Source: Candidatus Chloroploca mongolica (lineage in GTDB: Bacteria; Chloroflexota; Chloroflexia; Chloroflexales; Chloroflexaceae). From it: a DNA stretch of 64,000 nt. Every line of letters begins with the position of its first letter. The first letter of the stretch is position 1. The stretch covers positions 191,435 through 255,434 of the forward strand of contig NZ_SIJK02000001.1 in NCBI RefSeq assembly GCF_004762035.2, read 5' to 3'. Positions 4,531 through 60,860 of this stretch are shown here, piece by piece. Position numbers and translations under genes: made by a program. The notes beneath the pieces were generated by a model. The model ran no database searches, was not told the origin of the DNA, and saw only the letters and a list, made by a program, of their open reading frames with translations.

Positions 4531-4591
4531 GCCCACAGCGTTTTGGTGACACTTTTCATGGTCGCTGGCCTCACTAATCCGCTCTGTGCCC

Positions 4592-4612
4592 TTTGCGCCT
4601 TTGCGTCAAGCC
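4592..4612. repeat. Copy of the GCGCAAAG dispersed repeat at the panE stop codon
   Basis: A short copy of the repeat built on TTGACGCAAAGGCGCAAAG (reading on the minus strand). Its leading TTGACGC supplies the stop codon of the panE reading frame, which suggests the 3' end of that gene was trimmed when the repeat arrived. Other copies lie near 27095-27225, 54468-54567, 55824-55884, 60784-60860 and 62861-62893. Confidence 0.75.
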
Positions 4613-5538
4613 GCTGCAACGGATGCCCCCGCGCCTTCCGTTGCCTCCAGGGCGGTGATCAGCGCGACCAGGGTGGCGTTGTATGGCGTGGCAATGCCGA
4701 GCTGCGTGCCGATGGCGACGATGGCGCCGTTGATCGTGGCGATTTCGGTGGGGGCGCCGCGGAGCCGATCTTGTAGCATCGACGATTGGTTCGCGGCGGT
4801 GGCGCGGGCGACCTGGAGGACATGCGCAACCGGGTCGGTGTAGGGCAGCGTGATGCCCTGCGCCTCGGCGACACGCACTGCTTCGGTGACGACGGCACTG
4901 AGCAGGCTGCGGGCCGCGCTGTTTTCGGCGAGCACGCCGTTGCGCACGCGCAGCAGCGCCGTGATGGCGTTGATGCCGGCGTTGACGATCAGTTTGCCCC
5001 AGATCAGGGTGTCAAGATCACCCGTAACGCTCGTCGGCAAACCCGCCTGGTTCAGCAGATCGGCGAGGGCGTTGGCCTGCACCGGGTTTGGCGTGAGGCT
5101 CAGGGTGGTCGCGCCCATCCCAGCGTGCCGGACGCGCCCCGGCCCCAGCAGGGTGCCGCCTAGCGTGGTGACCCCCTGCCCCACCCGTGTTGCGCCGAGC
5201 TGCCCGGCAAGGATGGCCTGGTTGCCCAGGCCGTTCTGGAGCGTGTAGGCAAGGCCATCGGGGGCCAGCGCTGCGGCACACGCTTCGGCGGCCCAGGCTG
5301 TCTGGTGCGCTTTGACGAGCACCAGGGCAAGCTGGGCGGGCAAAGCCAAGGCGGGGTCGCTCACGGCGTGTACCGGACGCGCCTCGACGACCCCATCGCG
5401 CTCGCAGTGCAGGCCGCCGCGGTTCAGCGCGGCAACATGGTCAGCCCATTGATCAACAATGACCAGATCGCAGTGCGGTGCGAGATACCATGCCAAGACC
5501 CCACCGATCGCGCCGGCTCCGATGATCGCAATTCGCAT
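4606..5538 (-). CDS. panE: 2-dehydropantoate 2-reductase (ketopantoate reductase)
   Basis: NADPH-dependent reduction of ketopantoate to pantoate, a step of pantothenate and CoA synthesis. The 310-aa protein opens with the Rossmann motif GAGAIGG at residues 7-13, has the family Lys and Asn in LVKAHQT and LQNGLGN, and a C-terminal helical domain containing IWGKLIVNAGINA. Length is normal for ApbA/PanE. It follows serS by two bases and is probably co-transcribed. Its last residues and stop run into a dispersed repeat. ApbA/PanE paralogues sometimes act on other 2-keto acids. Confidence 0.88.
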   Translation of the reverse strand: MRIAIIGAGAIGGVLAWYLAPHCDLVIVDQWADHVAALNRGGLHCERDGVVEARPVHAVSDPALALPAQLALVLVKAHQTAWAAEACAAALAPDGLAYTLQNGLGNQAILAGQLGATRVGQGVTTLGGTLLGPGRVRHAGMGATTLSLTPNPVQANALADLLNQAGLPTSVTGDLDTLIWGKLIVNAGINAITALLRVRNGVLAENSAARSLLSAVVTEAVRVAEAQGITLPYTDPVAHVLQVARATAANQSSMLQDRLRGAPTEIATINGAIVAIGTQLGIATPYNATLVALITALEATEGAGASVAAA

Positions 5539-21403: not shown

Positions 21404-24400
21404 CAGGTCAAACGATCAAGCTGCACACGAGCGCGGGCGGCAAAGTCGCTCGATGCGTCGAGCTGGATAACCGTGCGGTAAGCACGGATAGCTTCTGCGG
21501 TATTGCCCATCGCCTCGGCGACGAGCCCACGATAAAACATGGCTTCGACAAAATCAGGCCGGTACGTAAGCGCCTGATCAAAGGCGCTCGCTGCGGCGGG
21601 ATAACGTCCCTGAGCATAATAGGCTCGCCCGAGCCAGTAGGCAGCATCAGGAAAGTTGGCCTCGAGCTGAATGGCCCGGTTGAGATCACTCATCGCTTGT
21701 TCTTCATCGTTTTGCTGAAGGGCAAGCACCCCTCGCCGGTAGAAGGTCTCAGCAATGGTATTATTTGCGGCAATAGATTGATTATATGCGTTCATCGCCT
21801 CCTTCTGACGCTGTTGTTCTTGCAAGAGTTTGCCTTTGAAGAGCAGGGCTTCGGCATAGGTGGGCCGTTGGGCAAGCCCCTGATTGACGATCTCCAGGGC
21901 AAGGTTGCTCTCGCCCTGGGCATGACGGGTCTGCGCCAGCCCGAGATAGGCTTCAGCAAAGCCTGGATCGAGGGCGAGGGCCCGGTTGTAGCGTTCGGCG
22001 GCCCCATAGAAGTCGCCCCGGCGCAAGAGGCTCTCGCCCACCCAGAACTGGGCATGCGCACTTGTTGGGCCATCAGGCAGCGCCGCCGCTGCTTCGAAAT
22101 AACTTTGCGCAAAGCCCCAGTTGTCTTGCGCAACGGCAATCAGGCCGAGGCCAAGCTGGGCGCTGACGCGATTGGGGTCGAGGCGGCTCGCCTGGGTGTA
22201 GAATTCACTTGCCAGGCTCAGGTTGTTGCTGCGTCGGTGAAGATCGCCAAGCGCGATCAGCGCCTGCACGCGCAGATCGACCAGGGTGGGCTCGGGACTG
22301 CCTGCGGTCAATTCGAGGACGCGCTGTTGTTCGCCAAGCGCGGCTTCAAGCCGCCCACGGGCGGCATAGGCCTGCCCCAGTTTGAAGTGTACGTGGGCTA
22401 CCCCAGGTTGTGCGGCAAGGGCTTCACGATAGGCCGTGATGGCCTGATCATACGTGCCATGCGCCATAAAGGCGTCCCCAATGCGTTCCAGGGCCTCGGG
22501 ATCACGCAAGCCCTGTTCGAGAATGGCCTCGTATTCGCGATCGGCCTGGGCTGGATCATTCAGTGGCCCGTGATAGAGATCGGCAAGCACCAGCCGTGCA
22601 TCAAGGTTGGTGCTATCAAAACGAAGGGCGTCGCGGAGCGCACGTTCGGCTCCTTGGTAATCACCCAGGCGCATTAGCGTTTCGCCTAACTCAAAGGCCG
22701 CGATGCTATTGCGTCGCTCAAGCCGTAACGCGTCGCGGTAGATATCACGGGCACGTTCAGGATGGCCGGCATCGTTGTATAAACGCGCCAGTTCAATCGC
22801 CGCCATTGCGTTCGTGGTACTCAAGCCGAGCAACTGGGTTTCGGCCTTGGCCCAGCCATCCGGCCCGCTGAGCCGTAATAGGCGCGCATAGCTGATCGTC
22901 GTCAGCGATCCGGGCCGGAGCTCCTGCAAGGCTGCGTAATGGGCGAGGGCGGTTGCCCAATCGCCCTGTGCCTCGGCAAGCCGCGCCAGGGCGACATGAC
23001 TCGGAAAGAAGGCACTGTTGCGCGCCAAGGCTTCGTTGAAGAAACGCGTCGCATCACCTTCCTCGCCCCGCTCAAAGGCGACCATGCCCCGCCCAAAGTA
23101 GCCCTCTGGTTGCTGGGGAGCCAACTGAATCGCTTGATCATACCGCTCAGCAGCTGGCTCTGGCTGGCCCTGCAGGCGGTACGTTCGGCCCAGTGCATTG
23201 ACAACGGCAGGAAGATTGGGATTCCGCTGATCGATCTCATCAAGCACGGCAAGACTCGGCGAACGGGACGCCCCGGTGCCAAAGAGGGCCGCCAGAAAGC
23301 CTGGTCGGTCACTCAGTGTGGTACGCTCGATCTCACCATGCACTAGCGCATAATAGTAGCGCTGACGGTCACGGTTGCGTTCCGAACCTACGGCCTGTGA
23401 ACTCGCGAGCAGACCAGTTCCGGGGAAGGCGGCTGCTTCGGTGACGGCGCGTCGTCGCCATTGGATGCTCTCTGCTTCGCTTGCCTCGAACGCACGCTGC
23501 AGATCGGTCAGAATCTGCTGCAACGCCCGAACTGGTTGTATCGGGGCAATTTCGAGTTCCCAGATCAGCGCTCCCCTGGTTTCGAGTTGGCGGGCAAGCG
23601 CGAGCAGGGCTTGCTCTTCATACCGACGGGCTTCGTGCCGCTGATTGAACATCACCCGCAATGGCGTCGGGACGAGTCGTGTGTCCCGGCGCATCTGCTG
23701 TTCTGCCTCCTCCAGCGTGGTGTTCGCCGCCTGCAATTGCCCGGTCTCACGATAGCCAGTCGTCAATTGAAACAAGAGCGGTGCGCTGACTGGCAACAGA
23801 TTCCGAGCCTGTTCGAGTTCAACCAGGGCATCGGCAGGCCGTTGCTCACGGAAGGCGAGCAGCGCCAGATTGAACCGCAGTTCGCCGAGATCGCGTCCAT
23901 CGAGCCGTTGCACGACTTCGGCATAGGCAGCCAGAGCCTCGGGGTTGCCGCCATCAAAGAGGATCGCCCCGAGATTGTTGGCGAGCAGGGCCTGCTCGTG
24001 ACCGGGGAGGGCAAGCGCCTGGCGGTATTGGCTTGCTGCGTCGTCGATAAGCCCACGCGCCCAGAAGATGTTGCCCCGCAGGGCATAGATCAAAGGGTTT
24101 TCAAGCGCCGCATAGTCTTCTTGCAACTGATCAAGGCGGTTCAAGGCCCGATCCGGTTCACCCATCGCATAATCGTAGAGCGCCACCACGAGTGGGGCAA
24201 GCACGGCTTGACCATTAATAGCTTCCGTCGTCAGGATGTAGCTGCGGGGCAACGTAAACCGACTGAGATAGCCATCCCAGGCGTTCGGGCCATAGATGCC
24301 CGTCGGTGTATAGATAAGGAAGGGGCGCAGGGCCGCCTGATCCAGCAGGCTGCCCGCCTCGACCTGGCCCCAAATCAACAGATCCGCCTCGACATCAACG

Positions 24401-24882
24401 GCCATAGCCAGCGCCTCGACCGGATCAGTTGGGCGTCGTCGGGCAACACTCGCTACAATCGCCCGCTGACCGGCGCCTTGCAACACCCGCACCAGTTCGG
24501 TCGCAACACTCTCCCCGGTCGTCCCATCCCCACCATCGTCAAACGGAGCCACCACCACAATGAAGCGATCCGCTCGACTGACAAACTGATCCTGCATGAG
24601 CAGATAGCCAGCCCCGACGATCATCAACCCAACGATCAGCGCCAGAACCAGCGCCTGACGACGACTCAGCGTGCGCAGATACATACGGAGACGCGCCATA
24701 CGCTTGCCACGACGGGCACCACGAGCTTCGCGCTCGGTAGCGTCAGCCGTTCCTGGTTCAGCATGTGGCGTCGCGGGCAGAACGTCATCGGTACGTCGCC
24801 GTCGCACAATCAGCAACGTGGTAACAACTGCCCCCACCACTGTGAGTAGTCCAAGCAGGACTAGCAGCACAAGTGTATTCAT
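21403..24882 (-). CDS. Membrane-anchored TPR-repeat protein
   Basis: A 1159-aa protein. A first hydrophobic helix (about residues 5-26) and a second (about 77-96) bracket a charged Arg-rich segment. Then comes a domain with FIVVVAPFDD and a nucleotide-fold look, and from about residue 245 to the end a run of 15 or more tetratricopeptide repeats (for example AEAYLGLAQTRHAQGE and DAAYWLGRAYYAQGRY). It probably scaffolds protein complexes at the membrane. It heads the coupled run described for its downstream neighbours and lies 32 bases after the MDR gene. Confidence 0.8.
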   Translation of the reverse strand: MNTLVLLVLLGLLTVVGAVVTTLLIVRRRRTDDVLPATPHAEPGTADATEREARGARRGKRMARLRMYLRTLSRRQALVLALIVGLMIVGAGYLLMQDQFVSRADRFIVVVAPFDDGGDGTTGESVATELVRVLQGAGQRAIVASVARRRPTDPVEALAMAVDVEADLLIWGQVEAGSLLDQAALRPFLIYTPTGIYGPNAWDGYLSRFTLPRSYILTTEAINGQAVLAPLVVALYDYAMGEPDRALNRLDQLQEDYAALENPLIYALRGNIFWARGLIDDAASQYRQALALPGHEQALLANNLGAILFDGGNPEALAAYAEVVQRLDGRDLGELRFNLALLAFREQRPADALVELEQARNLLPVSAPLLFQLTTGYRETGQLQAANTTLEEAEQQMRRDTRLVPTPLRVMFNQRHEARRYEEQALLALARQLETRGALIWELEIAPIQPVRALQQILTDLQRAFEASEAESIQWRRRAVTEAAAFPGTGLLASSQAVGSERNRDRQRYYYALVHGEIERTTLSDRPGFLAALFGTGASRSPSLAVLDEIDQRNPNLPAVVNALGRTYRLQGQPEPAAERYDQAIQLAPQQPEGYFGRGMVAFERGEEGDATRFFNEALARNSAFFPSHVALARLAEAQGDWATALAHYAALQELRPGSLTTISYARLLRLSGPDGWAKAETQLLGLSTTNAMAAIELARLYNDAGHPERARDIYRDALRLERRNSIAAFELGETLMRLGDYQGAERALRDALRFDSTNLDARLVLADLYHGPLNDPAQADREYEAILEQGLRDPEALERIGDAFMAHGTYDQAITAYREALAAQPGVAHVHFKLGQAYAARGRLEAALGEQQRVLELTAGSPEPTLVDLRVQALIALGDLHRRSNNLSLASEFYTQASRLDPNRVSAQLGLGLIAVAQDNWGFAQSYFEAAAALPDGPTSAHAQFWVGESLLRRGDFYGAAERYNRALALDPGFAEAYLGLAQTRHAQGESNLALEIVNQGLAQRPTYAEALLFKGKLLQEQQRQKEAMNAYNQSIAANNTIAETFYRRGVLALQQNDEEQAMSDLNRAIQLEANFPDAAYWLGRAYYAQGRYPAAASAFDQALTYRPDFVEAMFYRGLVAEAMGNTAEAIRAYRTVIQLDASSDFAARARVQLDRLT

Positions 24883-24914
24883 ACGATTGAGATCCCTCGT
24901 ATGCCCAGCGTGGC

Positions 24915-25871
24915 TCAGTCACTGCTGCGCATCTGCAGCAGGATCTTGAGGTTGCCGCGGGCCGCAGCAAACGCTTCAAGCGCCCTCGTCAGCGGATAAG
25001 TAGCCGTGATCAGTGGTGCAGTTTCGATCAGACCGCGCTCGAGCAGACGCAGGGCCGGGGCAAAGGGTCCACAACGTGAGCCAAGCAGTTGCACTTCATC
25101 AACGACCAACATGGTCAGATTGATCTCCGAAGCCGCCTCAAACGTACTTTTGAGCACCAACCGTCCCCGTGGGCGAACAAGCCGACGGGTTGTTGCGAGG
25201 CCAGCAGGTTGCCCCGTACAATCAACGACAACGTCAAACGATCCCGTTGCCAGATGATCTTCGGTGGTGCAGATAATGCCCTGGCGCTGATAGACACCCC
25301 AGCGCTCGGGGTGGCGCCCAACCAGGGTCAGATCGCATCCAGTGAGCCGTAAGACCTGGACAATCATCGCCCCAAGCTTGCCGTCACCAACTACGGCAAC
25401 CCGCTCGGTGGGCCGGATATGGCTCTGTTCAACAATCTCAAGCGCTGCCGCCAGAGGCTCGACAAAGACTGCCGCCGTGTCGGGCACGGCTGGGGGGACG
25501 GCATGCAGACAACTCACCGGTAGGCTAAAACACTCGGCCATGACGCCATCGCGCCGGTCGATGCCGAGCGTTGTGCGCTGCGGACAATGGGGCGCATCGC
25601 CCCGGCGACAGGTCGCACAGACACCACAGGCAGCATTGATTTCGCCGACAACGCGTTGCCCAACCCAGGCCTGATCTTCACACGCAATGACGGTGCCAAC
25701 AAATTCATGCCCAGGAACGCCTTGAAAGCCCATGTACCCACGCGTGATTTCAAGATCGGTATTGCAGATACCAGCCAGATGCGGACGAATCAAGGCCTCG
25801 CCGGGGCGCAACGCGGGGTCGGCATACGTTGTCACCAGGTTGAGTGAACCATCAAAAACCAGGGCTAGCAT
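24915..25871 (-). CDS. Zinc-dependent medium-chain alcohol dehydrogenase family protein
   Basis: A 318-aa MDR protein: catalytic-zinc ligand Cys in GICNTDLE, GHEFVG, the structural-zinc Cys cluster CGVCATCRRGDAPHC, and a Rossmann segment AVVGDGKLGAMIVQVL. It oxidises or reduces an alcohol or polyol with NAD(P); the substrate is unknown. Shorter than typical ADH (about 340-350). It lies upstream of the TPR gene on the same strand and may be co-transcribed. Confidence 0.83.
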   Translation of the reverse strand: MLALVFDGSLNLVTTYADPALRPGEALIRPHLAGICNTDLEITRGYMGFQGVPGHEFVGTVIACEDQAWVGQRVVGEINAACGVCATCRRGDAPHCPQRTTLGIDRRDGVMAECFSLPVSCLHAVPPAVPDTAAVFVEPLAAALEIVEQSHIRPTERVAVVGDGKLGAMIVQVLRLTGCDLTLVGRHPERWGVYQRQGIICTTEDHLATGSFDVVVDCTGQPAGLATTRRLVRPRGRLVLKSTFEAASEINLTMLVVDEVQLLGSRCGPFAPALRLLERGLIETAPLITATYPLTRALEAFAAARGNLKILLQMRSSD

Positions 25872-25913
25872 AGCGCCTCAAGGGGACAGAGCACATCCTT
25901 CTTCTCTGCTTGA

Positions 25914-27005
25914 TTATACTACATTCTCATCTTGCTCATCGAGCCGAATGCGTTCATTCGCTGTCTGGCTTGACTCGACATAACGACCAGGCATCATCAG
26001 GCTGGTCCAGCCCCCAGCGTCGCGCAGGGCAAAGGGGTCGCTCTTGCCACGAGCGGCGCGGGTTGCCCAGGTATGGCGCAAGTCGTGCGGCGCAAGCCCG
26101 GTGACGCCAATCCGTTCGCCGAGCAGCGCAACCCGGTCGCGGATGGCCCTGGTTGACATAAACCCCCAGAGTTCACCATTCTTACGTGAGCCGCGCAACA
26201 GCGGGCCGCTGGCGAGCGCATCATTCGCAAGGTAGGCCCGGGCTGCCGCGAGACTATCAGTTGGCAGGTGGTGCGTCTGGGTTGTATGCACCTTCTCACG
26301 GTAGAACGTCAGCGTGCCATCACGGAGATCGATGCTCGCAACGGTCAGCGCCGCGAGTTCGCCGACGCGCAGGCCAAGATCGAGCAGCAGACAGACGAGC
26401 AACGCATCGCGGCGGCCCTGGGGCGTATCAGGCTGCTCCTTCAAGGCCTGCACCTGGGGCGTCGTTAAGACGATCGCCTGGGCCTTCTTGCTCCCCACCC
26501 GAGTCGGCGTAGAAGTGCGTCGTCGCTGGGTGTCCATCGCCCGCGCCTGGCGACCACTATACCCGCGTACCGTCCGGATCAGCGCGAGCGCATCTGCGGT
26601 CAGCACCCCAGCTTCATAGGCGAGCAGACAATAGCGTCGCACGGTCGCCAGACGCACATTGATCGAGCCAATCGCATAGCCCTGCTGCAACTGCCACTGC
26701 ACAAACCCACTGACGAGGCCATGGGTCACATTCTCCCAGGCTTCAGGCTGGGTCGGCAAACGCGCCCCCAACGCCGCAGCCTCCGCCTCAGGGATCGCCT
26801 TGATCGACCCGAGGAAAAAAGCAAAGAGCGCCAGATCCGCCTCCTGGCGGCGCAGCGTATCATCATCAATGCGCCCACGGTACTCAGCGAACGTCGTCGC
26901 CAGCGCCGCAACATTCGCCGCCGCCGCGGCGCTCGGATCGATCCTTGGACGCAGCGTTCGCCCTGGTGGGGGCGGTGTTTCGTTTTCTTTACTTATGTCA
27001 ACCAT
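25914..27005 (-). CDS. Tyrosine recombinase (phage-integrase family)
   Basis: Site-specific recombinase of 363 aa. N-terminal SAM-like DNA-binding domain (about residues 35-150), then the catalytic domain with Arg213 (LGLRVGEL), Lys238 (REKVH), His307 and Arg310 (PHDLRHTW), Trp333 where many have His (GGWTS) and nucleophile Tyr342 (GRYVES). The set is complete, so it may be active. I prefer the ATG at 27005 over 27041, because 27041 falls in the spacer of the 14-7-14 inverted site at 27023-27057. It is a distinct protein from the broken integron-type integrase next door. Confidence 0.85.
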
Positions 27006-27022
27006 ATTTCGCGTTTTTTGAT

Positions 27023-27057
27023 ATAACTTCCGATTACCCATACTAATCGGAAGTTAT
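27023..27057. other. Lox-like recombinase core site: 14-bp inverted arms, 7-bp spacer
   Basis: Left arm ataacttccgatta (27023-27036), spacer cccatac (27037-27043), right arm an exact reverse complement (27044-27057). Size and geometry match a tyrosine-recombinase core site, and the outer ATAACTTC of each arm is the same as the outer eight bases of loxP. It ends 17 bases before the start of the recombinase gene. An operator for the same gene is the main alternative. Confidence 0.6.
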
Positions 27058-27094
27058 TGTAACCCAGGCGGCAAGCCCTGTCAACTGGCCGGTA

Positions 27095-27225
27095 GACGCA
27101 AAGACGCAAAGCTGTGTGGGGAGATGAAGCCAACCTTTGCGCCTTTGCGCCTTTGCGCCTTTGCGTCAAATCCTCAGCGAGCTGTGTGGGGAGATGAAGC
27201 CAACCTTTGCGCCTTTGCGTCAAAC
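27095..27225. repeat. GCGCAAAG repeat cluster inside the broken integrase
   Basis: A forward copy (27095-27111) and two reverse copies (about 27135-27170 and 27207-27225) of the CGCAAAG repeat. A block beginning gctgtgtggggagatgaag recurs 70 bases apart (27111 and 27181), so part of the element was tandemly duplicated. It interrupts the integron-integrase-like frame right after its N-terminal domain. Confidence 0.8.
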
Positions 27226-27604
27226 CCTCAACCGCAAGGTGCGTAAGGAAGGCGCTTACCTCAGACGCTCCCATCTCGCGGGGGTGGCACAACTGGTGAA
27301 AGCGGACGAAGCGACGCACCCAACCGACATAGGCCTCTTCGGTGCGGAGTGAATAGTGTTTCCGGCGGATCTCGCGCAGCGACGCGTCCGGATTGAACAG
27401 GTCAACAGCAGCGTCAAACGCGGTCGCATGTTCAAGGACGCCATCCGCCTCTGGCGTGGGGTCATTCGCGATCTGGTCATCGAAGTCGCCTGCGGCCTCC
27501 ACAATTTCCGGCTCCGCTTGTTTCCTTGGAAGCCACTCAGGTAAATCGGCATAATCTTTATTATCTAACCCTACTGGGACTTTGCAGCAGCCCTGGCCGC
27601 TCAT
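27225..27604 (-). pseudogene. Truncated integron-type integrase (IntI-like N-terminal domain)
   Basis: From ATG 27604, preceded by AAGGAGAGG, about 125 codons remain. After a 75-residue leader the frame reads [18 protein letters not shown], then [19 protein letters not shown]: the N-terminal DNA-binding domain of integron integrases. Homology stops there and the frame runs into a dispersed repeat encoding only LTQRRKG-type sequence. The whole catalytic domain (R..HxxR..Y) is missing. It points away from the rightward array of small genes, the classical intI/cassette arrangement. Confidence 0.8.
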
Positions 27605-27693
27605 CAACCTCTCCTTATCTTTGCAAGGCACGCGTGGTATACTAGTCATCAGGCAGGTTGTATCAGATGAGGTGACACGGAGAGGCATCCGGG
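27605..27693. promoter_or_regulatory. Spacer between intI remnant and first cassette gene, with putative promoter
   Basis: This 89-base gap is where attI and the cassette promoter would lie. An extended -10 (TGGTATACT, hexamer 27638-27643) points toward the BrnT-like gene; the -35 is poor. GGAGAGG at 27679-27685 is its ribosome site. I could not assign a convincing attI core. Confidence 0.4.
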
Positions 27694-27981
27694 ATGGAGA
27701 TTGCCGTTATCATCTGCCCAGCTCCAATCGAGGAAAAGCTCGCAACCAAGCACCACGTCACGGTGCGCGAAGCTCGACAAGTACTCCTCTCCGCACCACG
27801 CATACGGTTTGCTGAGACCGGGCACACGGCGGGTGAGGATGTCTATGTCGCATTTGGACAGACGTTCGGTGGACGCTATCTGAGCGTGTTCTTCGTCTAC
27901 AAACGTGACGCGGCGACGGCGATCATTATCAGTGCGCGCGCTATGAGTGAGAAGGAGCGACGGGCCTATGGACGCAAATAA
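27694..27981 (+). CDS. BrnT-like toxin family protein
   Basis: A 95-aa protein whose C-terminal half ([37 protein letters not shown]) matches the BrnT/COG2929 ribonuclease-toxin pattern, in which ISAR and ERR..Y are conserved. The N-terminus ([20 protein letters not shown]) resembles the usual WDxxKAxxNxxKHGVSFEEA helix. Good ribosome site 8 bases upstream. The antitoxin-like gene overlaps its end by 14 bases. First gene after the intI remnant. Confidence 0.7.
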
Positions 27982-28228
27982 GGGCAGTTCCATTTCGCAC
28001 GCGACCACGCTCGAAGCCATGGGAGCCTTCTGGGATACCCACGACTTCACGGACTATGATACGGATACGCCGGATGTCCCGTGTAGCATTGCGCGGGCTG
28101 TGCCGCTTGAAGCCGAGCTATGGGCAGCGCTCGAGCGGCAAGCACAGGTGCGCGGCGTGAGCCTGGAAACGCTCGTCAACTTATGGCTGCAACAAAAGCT
28201 GAGCGAAGAAGCGCGACCGGCGGCCTAA
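27968..28228 (+). CDS. BrnA/CopG-like antitoxin
   Basis: An 86-aa protein. FWDTHDFTDYDTDTPDV is followed by a ribbon-helix-helix-like segment (RAVPLEAELWAALERQA, RGVSLETLVNLWLQQKL), the layout of CopG/BrnA-type antitoxins paired with BrnT or small RNases. It begins at ATG 27968 inside the toxin's last codons, so translation is coupled. It probably binds the toxin and represses the pair's promoter. Confidence 0.75.
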   Translation: MDANKGSSISHATTLEAMGAFWDTHDFTDYDTDTPDVPCSIARAVPLEAELWAALERQAQVRGVSLETLVNLWLQQKLSEEARPAA

Positions 28229-28501
28229 TGGTGAGGCGACCACGAGAGCGACGTGGTTGCCACGGTCATAGACCACGTGCGCTGCTTCAGTGCATAACAC
28301 CGGGCCAGGGCAGCATCTTCCGGCAAGCATCCACCACAAACGTTGCCGTTCGTTCCCCCGCACCACCTGGAACGAAACGATCAGGAGATGCGTTGAAGCA
28401 TCAGCATGCATCCTCCCCAGCCATCAGCGATGTCTTCCCCTTCATCGCTTTTCGATGCGATAAAGCCTGCTTATTGCGTGCTAAAGCCATCCGCTCATAC
28501 T
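28229..28501. other. Non-coding cassette tail
   Basis: About 270 bases between the antitoxin stop and the first attC-like site. No reading frame here resembles a known protein and no strong hairpin stands out. Long non-coding tails before attC are common in integron cassettes. Confidence 0.4.
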
Positions 28502-28635
28502 GCCCAACCCGCGCGTGCAGGCGACGCCGCTGGCACGACCCGCACGTTGGGCGCGATCTTGAACGTTCGACGCTGACAACAGGCGTATCGATCTATCGAA
28601 CCTGCCAGCGGCGCGCCTGAAGCGCAGCGTTGGGC
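28502..28635 (+). other. attC-like recombination site 1
   Basis: Left end GCCCAAC (28502-28508, fits RYYYAAC) and right end GTTGGGC (28629-28635, fits GTTRRRY) pair perfectly. Inside them, 28519-28535 pairs with 28603-28618 through CAGGCG and CGCCGCTGGCA, with one unpaired A at 28524. The result is an attC-type fold: outer simple site, unpaired central spacer, inner stem and an extrahelical base. The 134-base length is within the known attC range. Confidence 0.75.
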
Positions 28636-28707
28636 GGCTCTACCAACTCCTCTGTTTGATAGTACAATATCCTACGTGAGGCATACGCTACCGACGGGAG
28701 TATCATC

Positions 28708-28920
28708 ATGACGTTTACCATTGAGACGGAACAAGAAACTGACAGCCGCTGGATTGCCGAGATCATGGAACTGGCCGGGGTACTCGCCTATGGTACAACC
28801 CGCGACGAAGCACTTGCCCGCGCAAAGGCACTGGCCCTACGCGTGATTGCGGAACGACTGGAGCATGGTGAAGAACCCTCTGCGCTCACGACGATTGCAT
28901 TTGAGGCAACGCTCGTATGA
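28708..28920 (+). CDS. HicB-like antitoxin
   Basis: A 70-aa protein matching short HicB-type antitoxins: FTIETEQETDSRWIAEI, then GVLAYGTTRDEALARAKALALRVIAERLEHGE. These fold as a degraded RNase H and neutralise HicA. A HicA-like start overlaps its stop by four bases (ATGA). Coupled order HicB-HicA. Confidence 0.78.
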   Translation: MTFTIETEQETDSRWIAEIMELAGVLAYGTTRDEALARAKALALRVIAERLEHGEEPSALTTIAFEATLV

Positions 28921-29210
28921 GTTCGTGGTCAGCAACCAAAGCACGCCGCGTTCTCGCGGCGCTTCTTCGGATCGGGTGGCACATCAAACGAACCTCTGGC
29001 TCTCATCGAACCATGGTGAGACCCAATTATTTTATGGGGCGCTTCCCACCCATCGAGTTGTCCAGCGCAATACGTTCACTATCGATGATCTGTTCCAGCA
29101 GTTGCAGCCACGGTTGCATGACAATGTGCCTGCTGAAAACCGTCCCATTGGGGAGCCTTACGGCATGGCGACTATCGAATTCAGTGACGGCAACGAACAC
29201 GATCATCTGA
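28917..29210 (+). pseudogene. HicA-like toxin with corrupted C-terminus
   Basis: Begins as HicA should (SSWSATKARRVLAALLRIGW, then SGSHRTM with the catalytic His of the dsRBD-like fold). After about residue 40 the sequence stops resembling HicA and becomes Ser/Cys-rich. Another frame (about 29000-29452, including MATIEFSDGNEHDHL from 29165) looks more protein-like but is unrecognised. I read this as a HicA truncated by fusion to foreign DNA, so the pair is probably toxin-dead. Confidence 0.55.
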
Positions 29211-29340
29211 TTTACGATGAGACATTCGCTGTAGAACTCTTCCAGGTCGCATGCGCAAACCTCATGGAGGATGAGGAGTTTGGCGCAGAAATTGTCACCG
29301 CTGAGTGTGCCAGGCTTGGAGGCACGCCACCCGAAAAGCT

Positions 29341-29484
29341 GGAGGGATTACGCTGGGGTTACGCTTACGCCATGTCGACGTCCTCACCGCGTATGAAGAC
29401 CACGCCCACGATATTGCTGATAGCGATCTCCTCGACCGGGCAACGGCATTAGGCCGAGTCCCCTTTCCCCAAGATGATGATCTG
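29341..29484 (+). pseudogene. Fragment of a DUF5615 (PIN-like) toxin
   Basis: This frame reads GGITLGLRLRHVDVLTAYED, then DLLDRATALGRVPFPQDDDL, the middle of DUF5615/Mut7-C-type PIN-like proteins, including the acidic DDDL site. Both ends are missing: no start upstream in frame and no C-terminal part. It is a relic of another toxin-antitoxin cassette. Confidence 0.6.
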
Positions 29485-29756
29485 CGCACTGCGCTGCGTC
29501 CGAAGCCTTCTTCATTGATAACATACCTCGCAATGCCGCAGCGGTGCAGCAACGTGGGATGCGGGGATGTGCCCGTATCCGTGCAGGACGCTCCGTCGCA
29601 CCACATATCGCCACACGTCACGAAGTCGAGCCCGTTCTCACCGCAGTGTGATCGATATCGTTCGCACGGAGTAGCACCATATACATCGGGAGCGTTGGAC
29701 GTGCCAGTGCTGCTTTTCCTGCCATCATCATAAGAGCTCCATCAACGATAACCCCT

Positions 29757-29842
29757 TGCCCCAAACCAAGCCGTGCAGCCTGACGCCCCTAGCGCGGCTC
29801 TACACTTGCGGATATGCCAGCGGCGCATCTGACGCTTTGGGC
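29757..29842 (+). other. attC-like site 2 (degenerate)
   Basis: CCCAAA near 29760-29765 can pair with TTTGGG at 29836-29841 (from CTTTGGGC). Inside, TGCCAGCGGCGCATCTGACGC repeats the right half of site 1 and the left side carries a weaker match around CAGCCTGACGCCCC. The G of GTTGGGC has become T, so activity is doubtful. Confidence 0.5.
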
Positions 29843-29902
29843 AATTTTCCGCACTGGAATGCGCTATAATCCTTTTGCTTTCGTGCCGACCCTCGCCTCG
29901 CT

Positions 29903-29945
29903 CTACCGAAACTGCCAGCGACGCGCCTGACGCTCACCGTTGGGC
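29903..29945 (+). other. Orphan right half of an attC-like site
   Basis: CTGCCAGCGACGCGCCTGACG followed by GTTGGGC (29939-29945) is nearly the right half of site 1, in the same orientation. No matching left half is found between 29843 and 29902, so the cassette before it appears to have lost its 5' part. Confidence 0.5.
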
Positions 29946-30102
29946 CGCCTCAATTTTAGCCGCCACACGTTGAAGGCTGCTCAGGCGAGCGCCCGTTGTG
30001 CGAGGTCGAACACGTGCCGTGATCATCAGCCGTTGGGAGTGTCGAGCGGAAGAACCGGCATCGAGAACGCTCCTACCGAGGACACGTTGCGTTTGGCATC
30101 CC

Positions 30103-30132
30103 TTGCCGCACGCCTCTCTTTCATGGTATGAT
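30103..30132 (+). promoter_or_regulatory. Putative promoter of the first Uma2 gene
   Basis: TTGCCG (30103-30108), 18-base spacer, TATGAT (30127-30132), 45 bases before the Uma2 start. A cassette-borne promoter would let this gene be expressed without an integron promoter. Confidence 0.5.
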
Positions 30133-30176
30133 ATGAAGCAGCAGAACGTGCGTTTTACCTCGATATGGAGGCGTCT

Positions 30177-30779
30177 ATGACCGCACAACCAAAGCATTAT
30201 GTCACAAGCGATGAGTATTTAGCATTCGAGCGCACGAACGACGAAAAACATGAGTACCTCGCAGGGATGATCTATGCGATGTCTGGTGCAAGTGCGCGCC
30301 ACAACCGTATTGCGGGGAGTACCTATGCAACACTGTATGCGCAACTACGCCAGCGTCAATGCACGGTATATCCAAGTGATATGCGGGTAAAAGTCATTCA
30401 GACCGGGCTCTATACGTACCCCGATATTACTATTGTTTGCGGTAACGAACAGTTTGAAGACAAGAAAGAAGACACCCTCCTTAATCCGACCGTTATTATC
30501 GAAGTATTGTCGCCATCAACAGAGAAATATGATCGCGGAAAGAAATTTCAGCATTACCGTGCAATTCTTTCACTGCGTGAGTATATCTTAATCGCACAGG
30601 AAACCTATCACATTGAGCGATTTGTACGGCAAAGTGACAATACATGGGTCTTATCAGAGGCAACCAACCGAGAAGACACTATTGAGGTTACTACTGTTCA
30701 GTGTGTCCTCCATCTTGAAGAGGTCTATGAGAAGGTAACATTTTCATCAACCGAAGAAGAGCAAGGCGAAACAGCGTAA
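30177..30779 (+). CDS. Uma2-family PD-(D/E)XK endonuclease-like protein
   Basis: A 200-aa DUF820/Uma2 protein. Pattern: YLAFERTNDEKHEY (first conserved Glu), SDMRVKV, YPDITIVCG (catalytic Asp), NPTVIIEVLSPSTEKYD (Glu) and GKKFQHYR. The family folds like restriction nucleases and is abundant in Chloroflexota and cyanobacteria; the biological role is unsettled. Start 30177 has GGAGG six bases upstream. The left arm of attC-like site 3 overlaps its last codons. Its first 25 bases of coding sequence recur at 33610. Confidence 0.85.
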   Translation: MTAQPKHYVTSDEYLAFERTNDEKHEYLAGMIYAMSGASARHNRIAGSTYATLYAQLRQRQCTVYPSDMRVKVIQTGLYTYPDITIVCGNEQFEDKKEDTLLNPTVIIEVLSPSTEKYDRGKKFQHYRAILSLREYILIAQETYHIERFVRQSDNTWVLSEATNREDTIEVTTVQCVLHLEEVYEKVTFSSTEEEQGETA

Positions 30780-30895
30780 GGCGGACGCCGCTGGCGCGGC
30801 CCGTGAGTTGGTGCGTTTTTCATGCGCGTGACGTGCTAACGTGCGGTGCCATCTAGCGAACCCACCAGCGGTGCCGCTGAAGCCCGGCGTTCGGC
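30765..30895 (+). other. attC-like site 3
   Basis: Left GGCGAAAC (30765-30772) faces GTTCGGC (30889-30895), an imperfect simple site. Inside, GGCGGACGCCGCTGG pairs with CCAGCGGTGCCGCT, with small bulges. Layout and orientation agree with site 1 and it directly follows the Uma2 gene, as expected for a cassette. The core differs from GTTRRRY at one base. Confidence 0.55.
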
Positions 30896-30926
30896 GCACT
30901 GCCAGTCTGCAATCGAGAAAGGTCAT

Positions 30927-31436
30927 ATGGAAATCGAGCACTTTGTCCAGCAGATGCTCGCCAATGCTGAGCGGATTCGCTCTCTCGTGCAAGTTGTCCC
31001 CAGCAGCCAAGCACGTTGGAAGCCAGATGAGGCGTCCTGGTCAATTCTGGAGGTGGTCGGTCATCTCTACGATGAGGAGCGCTTGGATTTCCGCGTTCGA
31101 TTGGACTTCACCCTTCATCGCCCCGGTGAGCCTTGGCCGGCGATCAATCCCCAGGGCTGGGTGCAAGAGCATCACTACAACGAGGGAGATCTTCAGGAGT
31201 CACTCGGCGGCTTTCTCGCAACGCGGGAGGATTCGGTGCGATGGCTGAGAGGGTTGTCATCCCCGAATTGGACAGCAGTGTATGAAGCGCCGTTTGGGCA
31301 GATCAGGGCAGGCGATCTATTGGCTGCTTGGGTGGCACACGATCTGCTTCACATGCGGCAGTTGGTGGAACTGCATTGGGGCTACCTGGTGGGGGGAGTG
31401 AAGCCCTACCAGGTGCAATATGCGGGAGAGTGGTAG
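30927..31436 (+). CDS. DinB-family four-helix-bundle protein
   Basis: A 169-aa protein with the DinB/YfiT pattern: an N-terminal helix, WSILEVVGHLYDEE (first metal His), and HDLLHMRQL near the C-terminus (two more His), the usual three-histidine metal site. Members include thiol S-transferases and many of unknown role. ATG 30927 has GAGAAAGG upstream. It is the next cassette after Uma2. Confidence 0.83.
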   Translation: MEIEHFVQQMLANAERIRSLVQVVPSSQARWKPDEASWSILEVVGHLYDEERLDFRVRLDFTLHRPGEPWPAINPQGWVQEHHYNEGDLQESLGGFLATREDSVRWLRGLSSPNWTAVYEAPFGQIRAGDLLAAWVAHDLLHMRQLVELHWGYLVGGVKPYQVQYAGEW

Positions 31437-31521
31437 GAGGCCAGGGATAGGGCGCTTATACTTCCTATGCCTTCCCATGCGCTCCTATGCGCCGCTTATG
31501 TTTCCTAGACGCGAGGTTCCC

Positions 31522-31689
31522 ATGGATTATGCAATAGCACGCGATGAGGCAATGGCGCAACTCGCCCGCAGCAAGCGACGGGCGTACCTGGCGCTGCTGG
31601 TGGGCAGCGTGCTGGTGCTCATCCGCGCTGTACGACGGCAAGAACGGCGGGCGCGACCAGGTGGTGCTGGCCGTCGTACAGCTGCGTGA
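31522..31689 (+). CDS. Possible small membrane peptide
   Basis: 55 codons: a charged N-terminus (MDYAIARDEAMAQLARSKRR), one hydrophobic helix (AYLALLVGSVLVLIRAV) and a very Arg-rich tail. No ribosome site is obvious. The tail coincides with a 12-bp inverted repeat (31628-31639 and 31670-31681) that may instead be a terminator or attC arm. Weakly supported. Confidence 0.3.
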   Translation: MDYAIARDEAMAQLARSKRRAYLALLVGSVLVLIRAVRRQERRARPGGAGRRTAA

Positions 31690-31725
31690 CGTGATGGTGT
31701 GAGCACGCGGGTGCGCTTCCAACGG

Positions 31726-31758
31726 CTGCCAGCGGCGCAGGTGAAGGAAGCGTTGGGG
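31726..31758 (+). other. Right half of a fourth attC-like site
   Basis: CTGCCAGCGGCGCAGGTGAAGG leading to GTTGGGG (31752-31758) matches the right halves of the other sites, with the last core base altered. A partner left half is uncertain; GAACGGCGGGCGCGACCAGG near 31641 is a candidate. DNA from here to 31970 encodes no complete gene, though one frame ends in LEDMLRRVVREELRK, perhaps the tail of a lost antitoxin. Confidence 0.4.
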
Positions 31759-31970
31759 CGGCTAAAGCAGCGTCATTCTACTTCCATTGGTGGGGATGGT
31801 ACAATAGGGCCAGTGCTCTGCGCGCGTACATCAATCAGCACTCCCTTGAAGATATGCTGCGACGGGTCGTGCGTGAGGAACTCCGCAAGAGCGCGTAAGC
31901 GCACGTCCAATTTGGCGGAGCAAACCCAGAATGGGTTGAATAAATAGTAGATAGACAGAAGAGGACAAGC

Positions 31971-32534
31971 ATGTCAGTCTACATACCAGCGATGCTCACT
32001 GAAGGGGAATATTTGGCCTTTGAGCGCATAAGCGAGCAAAAGCATGAATATTATGATGGGATCATCGTTGCCCAGGCGGGCGGAAGCGCCGCACATAATC
32101 GGATCACGATGAATGCCTTGAATAGCCTCTATAATCAGTTGATTAATCGCCCCTGCACGGTCTATTCGAGTGACATGCGGGTGAAAGTTCCACGCAAAAA
32201 TAGCTATGTGTATCCGGATGGCGTCGTCGTGTGTGGCGAAGAACGCTACGACGATACTGGAGATACGACCCTCTTAAACCCGATCGTCATCATTGAAGTG
32301 CTGTCACCCTCAACCGAACGCCACGATCGAGGGAAGAAATTTGAGTGGTATCGGACAATCGAGAGCTTAGAAGAGTACGTATTGATTGCCCAAGAAACGC
32401 AACGCATTGATCATTTCCGGCGGCAGTCAACCAGTTTATGGACGTTTACCTCGATAGGTGCGGAAGAAGCACAGCTCTATCTCGCCTCAATCGATTGCAC
32501 TTTGATCCTCAATGCCATCTACCACAATATATAA
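31971..32534 (+). CDS. Uma2-family PD-(D/E)XK endonuclease-like protein, second copy
   Basis: 187 aa, clearly paralogous to the gene at 30177: LAFERISEQKHEYYDG, SDMRVKV, YPDGVVVCGEE, NPIVIIEVLSPSTERHD and GKKFEWYR. The nuclease-fold Asp and Glu are kept. GAAGAGGA lies just before the ATG. Codons differ widely from the first copy, so this is an old duplication or separate capture, not a recent copy. Confidence 0.85.
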   Translation: MSVYIPAMLTEGEYLAFERISEQKHEYYDGIIVAQAGGSAAHNRITMNALNSLYNQLINRPCTVYSSDMRVKVPRKNSYVYPDGVVVCGEERYDDTGDTTLLNPIVIIEVLSPSTERHDRGKKFEWYRTIESLEEYVLIAQETQRIDHFRRQSTSLWTFTSIGAEEAQLYLASIDCTLILNAIYHNI

Positions 32535-33008
32535 GTTCTGAAACTGAATAGCAGCGGCGCGTACCAGTGGCACACCTTCTACCAACAGCGGCGCACCCGG
32601 GCGAATCACCTCCGATCATCTGCGATCCTGGCATCGAAGCGAGGCACCCGCAAGGGGTGCCCCTACAGGGCCGGGGGCCGGGCCCGGTGTACGGGCACCC
32701 CTGGCGGGTGCCCTGGCGGGTGCCCTGGCGGGTGCCCTGGCGGGTGCCCTGGCGGGTGTACGGGCGGGTGTACGGGCGGGTGCCCTGGCGGGTGTACGGG
32801 CGGGTGCCCTGGCGGGGTGCATACACGGAAGATGCCATCGCCCTGAGAGAGCCTCGGCTCAGTCTTGACAATGAACTGTCTTGATGTGTACTCTTTGTAT
32901 ATACGCTAAGGCATGTTTCAGAATTGAGTATGCTTGCTTGACCGTAGCGCATTCATTTCTGGAAAACCATCAGTCGGCTGAGCCTGGAAGCCGACTGAAG
33001 GAGGAGCA
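32535..33008. repeat. Gene-free stretch with a 10-unit 12-bp minisatellite
   Basis: 32701-32820 is exactly ten 12-base units, variants of ctggcgggtgcc and cgggcgggtgta. Just before it lies a ggcacccgcaaggggtgcc hairpin (about 32643-32661). At 32969-32995 a 9-bp hairpin (cagtcggct/agccgactg) precedes mazE. Open frames across the array encode only repeated RVPW/RVYG or PART-type peptides and are not credible genes. Confidence 0.8.
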
Positions 33009-33251
33009 ATGCAAAGTAAAGTTCAAAAATGGGGTAACAGTCTCGCGCTCCGGATCCCCAAGTCGTTTGCCGCAGAAATCGGTCTTTCCGATGGCACCCC
33101 CGTTGAGCTTACGCTTGTTGAAGGGAAACTCGTTATTGCACCGCTCCCTGTCCCAAGCTACTCCTTGGAAGCTTTGCTTGCTGGGATTACGCCGGCCAAC
33201 CTTCACGGAGAACTGGACACGGGAGCGCCTCAGGGTACTGAGGTGTGGTGA
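33009..33251 (+). CDS. mazE: MazE/AbrB-type antitoxin
   Basis: An 80-aa protein with the swapped-hairpin AbrB/MazE N-terminus (VQKWGNSLALRIPKSFAAEIGL, then GTPVELTLVEGKLVI), and a C-terminal tail likely to wrap the toxin. Preceded by AAGGAGGAGCA and a short hairpin that may serve autoregulation. Its TGA overlaps the toxin's ATG (TGATG). Confidence 0.88.
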   Translation: MQSKVQKWGNSLALRIPKSFAAEIGLSDGTPVELTLVEGKLVIAPLPVPSYSLEALLAGITPANLHGELDTGAPQGTEVW

Positions 33252-33595
33252 TGACGTATATTCCATCACGAGGTGACATTGTCTGGCTCACCTTCAATCC
33301 TCAAGCAGGCTCGGAACAAGCAGTTCGCCGGCCAGCAATTGTACTCTCACCGTCCACATACAACGGGAAAGTTGGACTTGCCATTTTCTGTCCCATTACG
33401 AATCAAGTCAAGGGATATCCGTTCGAAGTAGCCTTGCCAAAGGAACTTCCAGTTACCGGTATCGTACTATCGGATCAAGTCAAGAGCTTGGACTGGAGAA
33501 GCCGAAATGCGCAATTCGCGGGTCAAGTGCCGACAGAGGTCCTCAACGAGGTGCTGCAAAAAGTGTCAGCGCTTCTTTTCCTACCATCATCATAA
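33251..33595 (+). CDS. mazF: MazF/PemK-family endoribonuclease toxin
   Basis: A 114-aa protein: RGDIVWLTFNPQAGSEQAVRRPAIVLSP, then CPITNQVKGYPFEV and VLSDQVKSLDW, the full MazF pattern with the catalytic Arg in the first loop and Thr in CPIT. It cleaves single-stranded RNA at short sites when free of MazE. Translation is coupled to mazE through the TGATG overlap. Confidence 0.9.
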   Translation: MTYIPSRGDIVWLTFNPQAGSEQAVRRPAIVLSPSTYNGKVGLAIFCPITNQVKGYPFEVALPKELPVTGIVLSDQVKSLDWRSRNAQFAGQVPTEVLNEVLQKVSALLFLPSS

Positions 33596-33609
33596 GAACC
33601 TCATCAGTT

Positions 33610-33888
33610 CAACCAAAGCATTATGTCACAAGCGCTCTTCGGAAGCTTGTTGAGGAAGCGCGGCATGTGAACAGTAACCGGGATAAGGTTCGGCGTTCGC
33701 AAGAGATCGCTTACAAATTCATGTCCGCTATGGCGGGTGACTTGCCAGGGTTTGAGGAGGCGACCAGGGCGTTGTTCGCAGGAGACCATGAACAGTTTCA
33801 TAGCCTCATTTCTTCATGGCCTGTCGATGTCCGGGATTATGTCCGAAAGCTTTCAGCATCTGCTTTCCAACGTGAACATGCCACCTAA
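33610..33888 (+). pseudogene. Chimeric fragment: Uma2 5' end joined to a DUF2239 C-terminus
   Basis: 33610-33634 is identical to 25 bases of the Uma2 gene at 30186-30210 (QPKHYVTS in the same frame). It continues in frame into LRKLVEEARHVN, then YKFMSAMAGDLPGFEEATRALFAGD and WPVDVRDYVRKL, the C-terminal part of DUF2239 proteins. No start precedes the Uma2 part; a GTG at 33667 would give only 73 residues. I read it as a recombination scar. Confidence 0.65.
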
Positions 33889-37667: not shown

Positions 37668-39071
37668 TTATCCTGCCGTATCCATCGCCAGCGCGGCACT
37701 AATATCAGATCGCGTCAGGCCTTTGAACTCCTGAATACTAATGCTGCGCAAGAGGCCAATGGCAAGTAGCATCGCAACGGCTTCGAAGCCAAAGATAACC
37801 GCATAGCCCATCGCTTCAGACAGCAGACCCGTCTCGATGAGACCCGTGTGCAACGCCCCACTGAGGATATTGGCAAAACCGGTTCCGAGGCCTTGCGCCA
37901 TCCCCCAGAGGCCCATATACAGCCCAACCTGGCCTTCGATAGTCATATCCATCATCATCGAGAGGGCACCGACATCAAAGAAGCCGACGCCAAGACCAAT
38001 CACCAGCAACGCCGGAGTGATCAGCGCAGCCTGGTGCGTTAGACCAGCGCCAGCAACCGCAAGCAAGCCGATCGCCACCATCAGGCCACCCAGCGTCGCA
38101 ATGGTCTTTTTGCTGAGCGACGTGTAGGACGAAATGATCCCCATAAGGAAGATGCCAAGCAAGGCCCCACCTCCCCAGGACTGCTGGAAGGCGGCGGTTT
38201 CCTTCTGGTTCATCCCAAAGACTTCCGCGCCGAAGGGTTCAAGGATTGCGTCCTGAAGGAAGATGCCCATCACCGCAAGCAGCACGAAAAAGAAGAAGGC
38301 CCGCACATGGGGATTCGAACTCATCAGATTACGGGCGACACGGAAGGTGCTCAGCGGTGAGGCCGACATGTCAGGCTGCGTAGCAAGCAATGTGGCTTGC
38401 TCCTCCGGTGTAATGCGGCGCTCCATCCCAATGATACCGAGAAAGGTTGTGATGAAGACCACCGCAGGCGTGAGGTTGTAAAGGCGCTGCATCGCCTCGG
38501 GATCATAGTTGGGCATCATCTGTCCCGCTACCACTGACGTGATGATTCCGCTCAGGATGATGGCGGCCCAGACCACGGCAACAACCCCGCCACGCTCTTT
38601 TTCTGTGGTAACTTCGGCCATTAGAGCATTCGAGGCACTACCATTCATTGCCATCGCAACCCCAAAAAAACCAATCAAGAGGATGGCCTCGAAGGTCGCC
38701 GCCAGGCTCCGCTCGCCAAGACCAACCGCAATTGAGGGAAGCAAGAGAAAGATGAGCGAAGCGCCCATGCCGCTGAGGAAGATGTAGGGCGTGCGCCGAT
38801 AGCCAAAAAGTGCATAGCGATCAGCAAAACGACCCCAGTAGACCTGAAAGAAGGAGATGAAGTGATGCAAGCCGATCAGTGACGTGACGACAACCGCAAG
38901 CGCACCGAGATCGGCAATAGAAACGCGGTTGAAGTTAAACGTCAGCAGGGCGAACATCCAACCTGCTCCAATACGGGCGATCGAGAGGCGGATTGTCTTG
39001 AACCAAAAGCGTAGAAACCCCACGGAACCCCTCCATTTCTTGGAGTTTGGGCCGGTGTCCATCCGACCCAT
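37668..39071 (-). CDS. PucC/BCD-family (bacteriochlorophyll delivery) MFS transporter
   Basis: About 467 aa and 12 TM helices. The N-terminus (TIRLSIARIGAGWMFALLTF, then FNRVSIADLGALA, then GRFADRYALFGYRRTPYI) is the recognisable PucC/LhaA signature. These proteins help assemble light-harvesting complexes or deliver (bacterio)chlorophyll. It strongly suggests a phototroph. The start is uncertain: in-frame ATGs at 39071 and 39062, neither with a clear ribosome site. Confidence 0.85.
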   Translation of the reverse strand: MGRMDTGPNSKKWRGSVGFLRFWFKTIRLSIARIGAGWMFALLTFNFNRVSIADLGALAVVVTSLIGLHHFISFFQVYWGRFADRYALFGYRRTPYIFLSGMGASLIFLLLPSIAVGLGERSLAATFEAILLIGFFGVAMAMNGSASNALMAEVTTEKERGGVVAVVWAAIILSGIITSVVAGQMMPNYDPEAMQRLYNLTPAVVFITTFLGIIGMERRITPEEQATLLATQPDMSASPLSTFRVARNLMSSNPHVRAFFFFVLLAVMGIFLQDAILEPFGAEVFGMNQKETAAFQQSWGGGALLGIFLMGIISSYTSLSKKTIATLGGLMVAIGLLAVAGAGLTHQAALITPALLVIGLGVGFFDVGALSMMMDMTIEGQVGLYMGLWGMAQGLGTGFANILSGALHTGLIETGLLSEAMGYAVIFGFEAVAMLLAIGLLRSISIQEFKGLTRSDISAALAMDTAG

Positions 39072-39380
39072 GTATGGTAGGTAGACAGCGAAGAACAAGG
39101 CATCAGGCAGCCGATCAGTGGCGCTTCGGGCATGATGCACGGTTCCTCAATGATAGATTGCAAATAGATCGAAAAAACCGGTCTCTTGCGAGAACCGGGG
39201 CTAGACAACAACCTGAAGCCCAAGCAGCTACGGGTGCTCAGAGGTATGCACTTTACGCCCTGGTATCCAGGCCAGCGGGTCACTGCGAGACTATCGGGGC
39301 TGAATAGGTACAGATGACAATAGCGTGGATTATAGCATACTTTTTGCAATGTCCAGTCTGTGTGCTTCGTACGCATTTCC

Positions 39381-54467: not shown

Positions 54468-54567
54468 TGACGCAAAGGCGCAAAGGCGCAGAGAGATCTG
54501 ACGCAAAGGCGCAAAGGCGCAGAGAGATCTATTATACAGAACTTTGCGCCTTTGCGCCTTTGCGTCA
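54468..54567. repeat. GCGCAAAG inverted-repeat element
   Basis: Two forward copies (54468-54491 and about 54499-54522), each ending agagagatct, face one reverse copy (54542-54567), able to form a stem of about 23 bp. Same family as at 27095, 55824 and 60784. Confidence 0.8.
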
Positions 54568-54588
54568 AAAACCGGGCTTCCGGTCGTG

Positions 54589-60783: not shown

Positions 60784-60860
60784 TTGACGCAAAGACGCGA
60801 AGGCGCGAAGGTTTGATGTATCTGGATGCACAGCTTTGCGCCTTTGCGTCTTTGCGTCAA
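60784..60860. repeat. GCGCAAAG inverted-repeat element
   Basis: 27-base arms (60784-60810 and 60834-60860) pair with only two G-T wobbles. Flanks (CCTTGCA near 60760, TGCAAGG near 60876) add an outer inverted pair. Lies between the YgeY-like and YgeW-like genes. Confidence 0.8.

Follow-up and report, generated by a model that had tools for sequence, protein, structure and literature searches.

A 64,000-nucleotide stretch of the genome of Candidatus (Ca.) Chloroploca mongolica (contig NZ_SIJK02000001.1; hereafter the window, whose positions are meant wherever no other contig is named) contains a degenerate chromosomal integron, a well-supported finding of a kind already known. The locus is very probably the remnant of a sedentary chromosomal integron that has become an array resembling a cluster of attC sites lacking an integron integrase (CALIN), a class proposed to be degraded integrons in the available text of PMC9024848. 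Judged from sequence, the unexpected part would be the many attI sites made of tandem repeats around it, and the host genome carries many integron loci rather than the single one that a sequence-only reading of the window had described.

That reading had proposed a decayed chromosomal integron in a phototroph of the Chloroflexota, which is borne out by an integrase (IntI) fragment, a covariance-model match to an attC site, the arrays of relatives and the genus itself: the PUCC gene at 37668-39140 is consistent with phototrophy, and Ca. C. asiatica is described as one in the part of PMC6180586 available to us. For comparison, we used the genomes of two sister species, Ca. Chloroploca sp. Khr17 (NZ_RYFF01000029.1) and Ca. 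C. asiatica B7-9 (NZ_LYXE01000120.1).

The attC site and the intI fragment

As an Rfam search of the window gave one tRNA and nothing else, we built our own attC models. An arm-pairing scan listed 34 places in all, one nested in another, of which 25 entered alignment A1 and nine were not used. Removing L055:2070, L055:2817 and L009:9076, whose arms had been misplaced by the aligner, along with L056:3877 and L056:7165, left the 20 sites of A2; the 15 from outside the genus form A3, and A3 without the misaligned L050:12725 is A4 (14 sites, with the misaligned row L048:11220 retained). Covariance model R1 comprises 20 sites from seven genomes, with five of the 20 sites coming from the genus and 28502-28635 among these, whereas R2, based on A4, draws on four genomes that all lie outside the genus.

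The place at 28502-28635, previously picked out as the best folded site, is the only one that the arm-pairing scan finds in the window besides a nested 51-nt alternative, and the same scan found no place in the shuffled window (three shuffles per strand). It scores 82.3 bits with R1, in whose training set it lies, and 37.5 bits (E 3.1e-7) with R2, for which the next match in the 64-kb window reaches 8.9 bits and no second credible attC appears. Its ends, GCCCAAC and GTTGGGC, form paired arms that fit RYYYAAC/GTTRRRY, and the folding energy of its bottom strand is -47.4 kcal/mol (z -5.25), a value equalled by 0 of 200 shuffles. The extrahelical A seen in the initial reading is invariant in 20 of 20 sites of A2, where 96.3% of helix cells are paired and 43 cells changed on both sides, compared with 14.8 in shuffles; this covariation speaks for the family of sites and not for the window site alone. 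From its sequence and predicted fold, 28502-28635 appears to be a genuine attC, and it could still serve if IntI were supplied in trans.

Further attC copies had been claimed along the series, and right halves do recur, but these copies are decayed and none is found by R2. A right-half pattern, written from the window sites themselves, matches four times in the window (28605, 29915, 30865 and 31729; 0.04 expected), always on the plus strand, in keeping with the single orientation claimed. The copy read at 29810 ends in TTTGGGC and not in GTTGGG. R1 places attC at three points in the window, two of them decayed, and R2 at one, missing both 30766-30895 and 29758-29945; the last half-site (31717-31758) scores 5.3 bits with R1 (E 3), which is noise level. 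All attC of the window, one of them intact and several decayed, are on the plus strand, divergent from the intI fossil on the minus strand.

This fossil lies in an open reading frame (ORF) at 26993-27688 (minus strand) that TIGR02249, the integron integrase profile, matches with 55.9 bits over positions 7-57 of 315, below its whole-protein cut-off of 265 bits. The ORF is also matched by NF011946 and Pfam PF13495; as between IntI and Xer, the profiles found at E<=0.01 are TIGR02249 and NF011946 only, with no Xer profile among the matches. Searching the PDB with the 57-residue fragment returned Vibrio cholerae IntI4 (2a3v, E 2.3e-10) and a sole other chain at chance level (E 0.19). At the DNA level, the fossil and the intI of the corresponding C. 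asiatica locus share 95% identity over 145 bp, and the intact IntI of Khr17 is 77.6% identical to the fossil (residues 20-68). Frame 27224-27376 is, as far as profiles and homologues can tell, a fragment of the IntI family rather than of Xer, as initially read. The longer frame, 27225-27604, had been proposed for alignment to IntI as a whole, but only this part of it derives from IntI: the remainder, 27377-27604, has no Pfam match, and five other family members have similar small ORFs standing alone, which rules it out as the N-terminal part of a longer IntI. The fossil consequently amounts to only ~51 codons cut at both ends, with the IntI-specific additional domain and the catalytic residues outside it, and the window holds no functional intI.

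Adjoining the fossil is a complete-looking, Xer-like tyrosine recombinase (25914-27041, minus strand, 375 aa, PF00589), whose DNA is 92-93% conserved at the corresponding place in both sister species. We rejected it as the missing half of IntI, given its Xer-like character and no TIGR02249 match at E<=0.01.

Both sister species share the left flank (24002-27089) at 92-93% identity, and beside it ~173 residues of intI are left in C. asiatica and ~36 weakly matching residues in Khr17, both remnants having the same HicB/UPF0150-like gene as their neighbour (Pfam matches below cut-off). As for an intact intI at an orthologous locus, both sister copies are broken, at other points than in the window, but a different contig of Khr17 has a complete one (325 aa), accompanied by two attC that are oriented as expected; R2 also matches one of the two (76 bits). 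The sequence-only reading had held a repeat insertion responsible for the missing catalytic domain. The dispersed repeat GACGCAAAGRCGC, which occurs in the window far above expectation (Table 1), does abut the break, and it also abuts an intI scrap at C72:81337; yet the sister copies are broken elsewhere and the fossil has also been truncated at its N-terminal end. The case for insertion as the only cause is thereby weakened, and it would explain at most part of the loss. Palindromic GACGCAAAGRCGC repeats lie in the window at 27085-27232, 54468-54569, 60784-60862, 62851-62892 and 4580-4620, and others adjoin or sit inside attI-like sites at 81 kb of contig C72 and on C76.

Integron loci and attI sites beyond the window

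In the host assembly, rated 99.84% complete, no complete intI was found; the best match there ends at TIGR02249 position 254 of 315, a cut also present in C. asiatica (contig C119). Among the stretches fetched, intI pieces occur at seven host loci (C86, C149, C138, C13, the window, C72 at 81 kb and C5), those on C72 and C5 being short DNA matches (E about 3e-6), and a match on C145 is doubtful, as it is weak (E 6e-4) and almost 4 kb from the attI there. With R1, the assembly yields at least 40 attC matches at E<=1, three of them in the training set, and at least 32 at E<0.005 on 13 contigs; these are lower bounds, as 150 of 4837 first-look candidates were scored. Next to the attC on C86 stands a tyrosine recombinase, followed by an apparent IS91-type transposase gene, and a related stretch of DNA lies near a Uma2 gene of C. 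asiatica that is 99% identical to one in the window (L009 12950-15000; L128 1653-2652). Across the class, intI scores above cut-off in 30 of 158 genomes, compared with 0 of 14 controls, and in relatives an intact intI is accompanied by attC arrays that diverge from it and keep a coherent orientation.

Upstream of intI, the attI of the genus consists of tandem 40-41-bp repeats ending in GCYGTCTAMTTCATG^TTRRRY (CATG^TTRRRY). Over 21 distinct attI-cassette junctions from three genomes, conservation amounts to 1.29 bits per column between -40 and -19 and to 0.19 between +8 and +45. As the junctions were chosen by a pattern over -15 to +2 and the loci partly fetched for left-side similarity, the informative side is the right one, where conservation drops sharply; one cassette accounts for three of the 21 right sides. 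Such a switch from conserved to variable at G^TT is, on the evidence of these alignments, what insertion at one crossover point would leave.

An attI model trained on three Chloroploca genomes (R3) gives 19 matches in the host genome, merged to 14 sites on 11 contigs, and matches in 11 of 41 genomes of the family; at most of the 14 host sites, intI is absent or reduced to a scrap. A same-orientation attC follows within ~6.5 kb at 11 of the 14 host sites, the attC at one of them being weak (E 0.14); none was found downstream of those on C5 (a contig end), C25 and C138 (114696). Contig C65 has two attI sites 900 bp apart in one array. In genome G030, each of the five attI sites shares its contig with an attC at a distance of 0.4 to 9.4 kb; counting against the association, one of the four attI-like loci fetched from genome G040 has an attC match, and a weak one (E 0.02).

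We also surveyed 80 named intI loci for upstream tandem repeats, 69 of which had at least 200 bp upstream (eight were too short and three were excluded). A repeat with a period of 15-90 was found at six of the 69, five of them in Chloroflexota (periods 40, 41, 71, 80 or 81) and the sixth, of 18 bp, in a genome of the Acidobacteria. No such repeat occurs at seven or more further named loci from Chloroflexota. Among 26 intI loci of the class, five, overlapping the named set, have repeats of ~40, 71 or 81 bp and three have repeats of 20-22 bp. The 40-41-bp form of the Chloroploca attI seems to be shared with some related Chloroflexota. Integrons typically have one attI, and attI is poorly described outside class 1, according to the available text of PMC9024848; a literature search of limited scope returned no title or abstract on tandem-repeat attI or Chloroploca integrons, and the word integron is absent from the C. 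asiatica genome paper. A tentative extension, in which our confidence is less than even, is that the window may be a dead satellite of a multi-platform system with a dozen or so dispersed attI, at which a single IntI, of which Khr17 retains a complete copy, could load cassettes in trans.

Cassette-like genes and flanks of the array

The small genes said to run rightward, away from intI, do so: BrnT, Uma2, DinB and MazEF are all on the plus strand (Table 1). Matches above Pfam cut-off are those of BrnT, Uma2 (twice), DinB, MazE, MazF and the DUF2239 fragment, and the HicA-like gene misses the PF07927 cut-off by 0.2 bits. Several pieces recur elsewhere: 28708-29012 is 77% identical in DNA to the first cassette after attI on Khr17 contig C92, 29346-29485 matches both L010 (the C149 array) and C. 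asiatica contig C59, the Uma2 stretch 30045-30781 is found again at 99% on C. asiatica contig C62, and contig C138 has a DinB paralogue (85%) with an attC on either side. At 32640-32845 there is a tandem array of a GC-rich 12-bp unit, which belongs to a repeat with dozens of copies in all three Chloroploca genomes.

The right edge of the array (33.9 kb) is a rearrangement breakpoint relative to both sisters, and C. asiatica shares the right-flank DNA beside it at 99% identity. Khr17 contig C28 runs collinear with 31263-33871, and the flank of this contig matches host contig C87. Compared with window 747-35233, the two integron flanks in Khr17 lie 142 kb apart (L124 and L126 of C92), and the DNA after 35233 is replaced there by 4530-747, inverted; the region thus appears prone to rearrangement.

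Table 1 Features of the integron locus in the window, and examples of attI sites elsewhere
Feature	Position	Strand	Basis
GACGCAAAGRCGC repeat cluster at the intI break	27085-27232		20 window matches at <=1 mismatch, 0.46 expected
intI fossil, ~51 codons of the N-terminal domain	27224-27376	-	TIGR02249 profile match
Unrelated small ORF, in frame with the fossil	27377-27604	-	Stand-alone relatives in the family
BrnT toxin gene, first cassette gene left of the intact attC	27694-27981	+	PF04365 45.9 bits, above cut-off
Probable BrnA-type antitoxin	27947-28228	+	CopG_antitoxin 24.3 and BrnA family 18.9 bits, both below cut-off
Putative intact attC site	28502-28635	+	R2 37.5 bits, E 3.1e-7; fold z -5.25
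HicB-like antitoxin gene	28708-28920	+	Weak Pfam matches, below cut-off
HicA-like gene, only N-terminal part recognisable	28917-29210	+	PF07927 26.8 bits (cut-off 27), positions 2-29 of 58
Cassette piece in common with the C149 array of this genome	29346-29485	+	97% over 140 bp
Decayed attC remnant(s), two right halves	29758-29945	+	R1 24.4 bits; half-site at 29915
Uma2 family gene	30165-30779	+	PF05685 117.6 bits
Decayed attC	30766-30895	+	R1 26.2 bits
DinB family gene	30846-31436	+	PF12867 62.1 bits
attC right half-site, strongly decayed	31729-31759	+	Pattern with 3 mismatches
Second Uma2 family gene	31971-32534	+	PF05685 109.1 bits; 95% in Khr17 C28
MazE and MazF genes	33009-33595	+	PF04014 47.9 bits; PF02452 93.2 bits
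DUF2239 C-terminal fragment, right end of the array	33667-33888	+	PF09998 85.9 bits, positions 121-181 of 182
attI tandem-repeat sites, examples	L044 12780-13009; L009 11005-11243; L133 15837-15998; L225 5841-5965, 6742-6866		

Origin of the locus and relation to known systems

In the history that we propose, an IntI tyrosine recombinase would once have placed cassettes at an attI beside intI, acting on folded single-stranded attC hairpins; we infer both this canonical mechanism and the past activity. Cassettes would have piled up rightward in a single orientation, after which intI would have been reduced to ~51 codons, attI lost and all attC but one eroded, so that cassettes and attC have outlasted their integrase. 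In favour of such a sedentary-integron remnant are the R2 match, the covarying arms, the bottom-strand fold, the IntI profiles and 2a3v, as well as the C. asiatica locus, the oriented arrays of relatives and the DinB cassette between two attC on C138. Several results weigh against it. Only one attC of the window passes the genus-free R2, compared with the two that the CALIN criterion of IntegronFinder 2.0 calls for in the available text of PMC9024848, and R3 finds no attI in the window at E<=10. As the right edge is a breakpoint relative to both sisters, the right part may come from elsewhere. Finally, the link between attC and intI is loose in the family, where R2 matches occur in at least 19 of 41 genomes, namely in 11 of the 19 that have intI and in 8 of the 22 that lack it (lower bounds, from 85 candidates scored per genome under stricter filters).

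Three other explanations compete with a decayed integron. The array might still be in use, its cassettes shuffled in trans by an IntI elsewhere in the cell or in the unassembled part of the genome: attC 28502-28635 is intact, many other host attC score well, Khr17 has kept a complete IntI, and IntI in trans is able to mobilise CALIN cassettes (PMC9668308, in its available part). The Uma2 cassette is, moreover, 99% identical in C. asiatica, compared with 92-93% for the left flank, but the right flank is likewise 99% identical there, so this identity is not special. With the remaining window attC decayed, and the best host intI ending at position 254 of 315 in a nearly complete genome, we consider continued use unlikely. 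The breakpoint at the right edge, and the collinearity of 31263-33871 with a different Khr17 contig whose flank matches host C87, would also suit a detached cassette cluster, foreign to the intI fossil, that genome rearrangement has placed beside it; this we find quite improbable, given that the HicB-like cassette also comes after the intI remnant and attI at this locus in Khr17 and that the layout of intI and cassettes is canonically divergent. That there was no integron at all, the hairpins being ordinary dispersed palindromic repeats and the frame an Xer-type remnant, is hardly credible even in a genome rich in such repeats: a model from sites beside the intI of other species matches 28502-28635, the arms covary, the profiles matched are those of IntI and not of Xer, and conservation at the attI junctions of the genus gives way to variability at G^TT.

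In sedentary chromosomal integrons of the Vibrio type, intI is divergent from cassettes rich in toxin-antitoxin genes. The window resembles them in its divergent intI fossil and toxin-antitoxin cassettes, whereas the Chloroploca arrays are short, spread over many contigs and mostly without intI. Like a CALIN, the window has attC-bounded cassettes and no working integrase, but it retains a recognisable intI fossil. Nemergut et al. (2008) found nearly a third of intI to be pseudogenes ('pseudointegrons'), more than one intI in a fifth of integron-bearing lineages and Chloroflexi among the phyla with intI, and attributed some pseudointegrons to duplication within the genome (available text of PMC2426708). 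Chloroploca is similar to those cases in its intI pseudogenes and several intI per genome; it differs in that seven fragments, plus one doubtful, occur in one genome, most of them far short of a whole gene, and in the attI-like repeats beside most intI fragments.

Within one genus, intI occurs complete, as copies that end at the same residue in two species, and as fragments of ~173 to ~20 residues; together with arrays at various stages, this series makes it possible to trace step by step how an integron is lost while its cassettes survive. The 21 natural attI-cassette junctions, in turn, make the role of repeated attI elements and of a trans-acting IntI testable.

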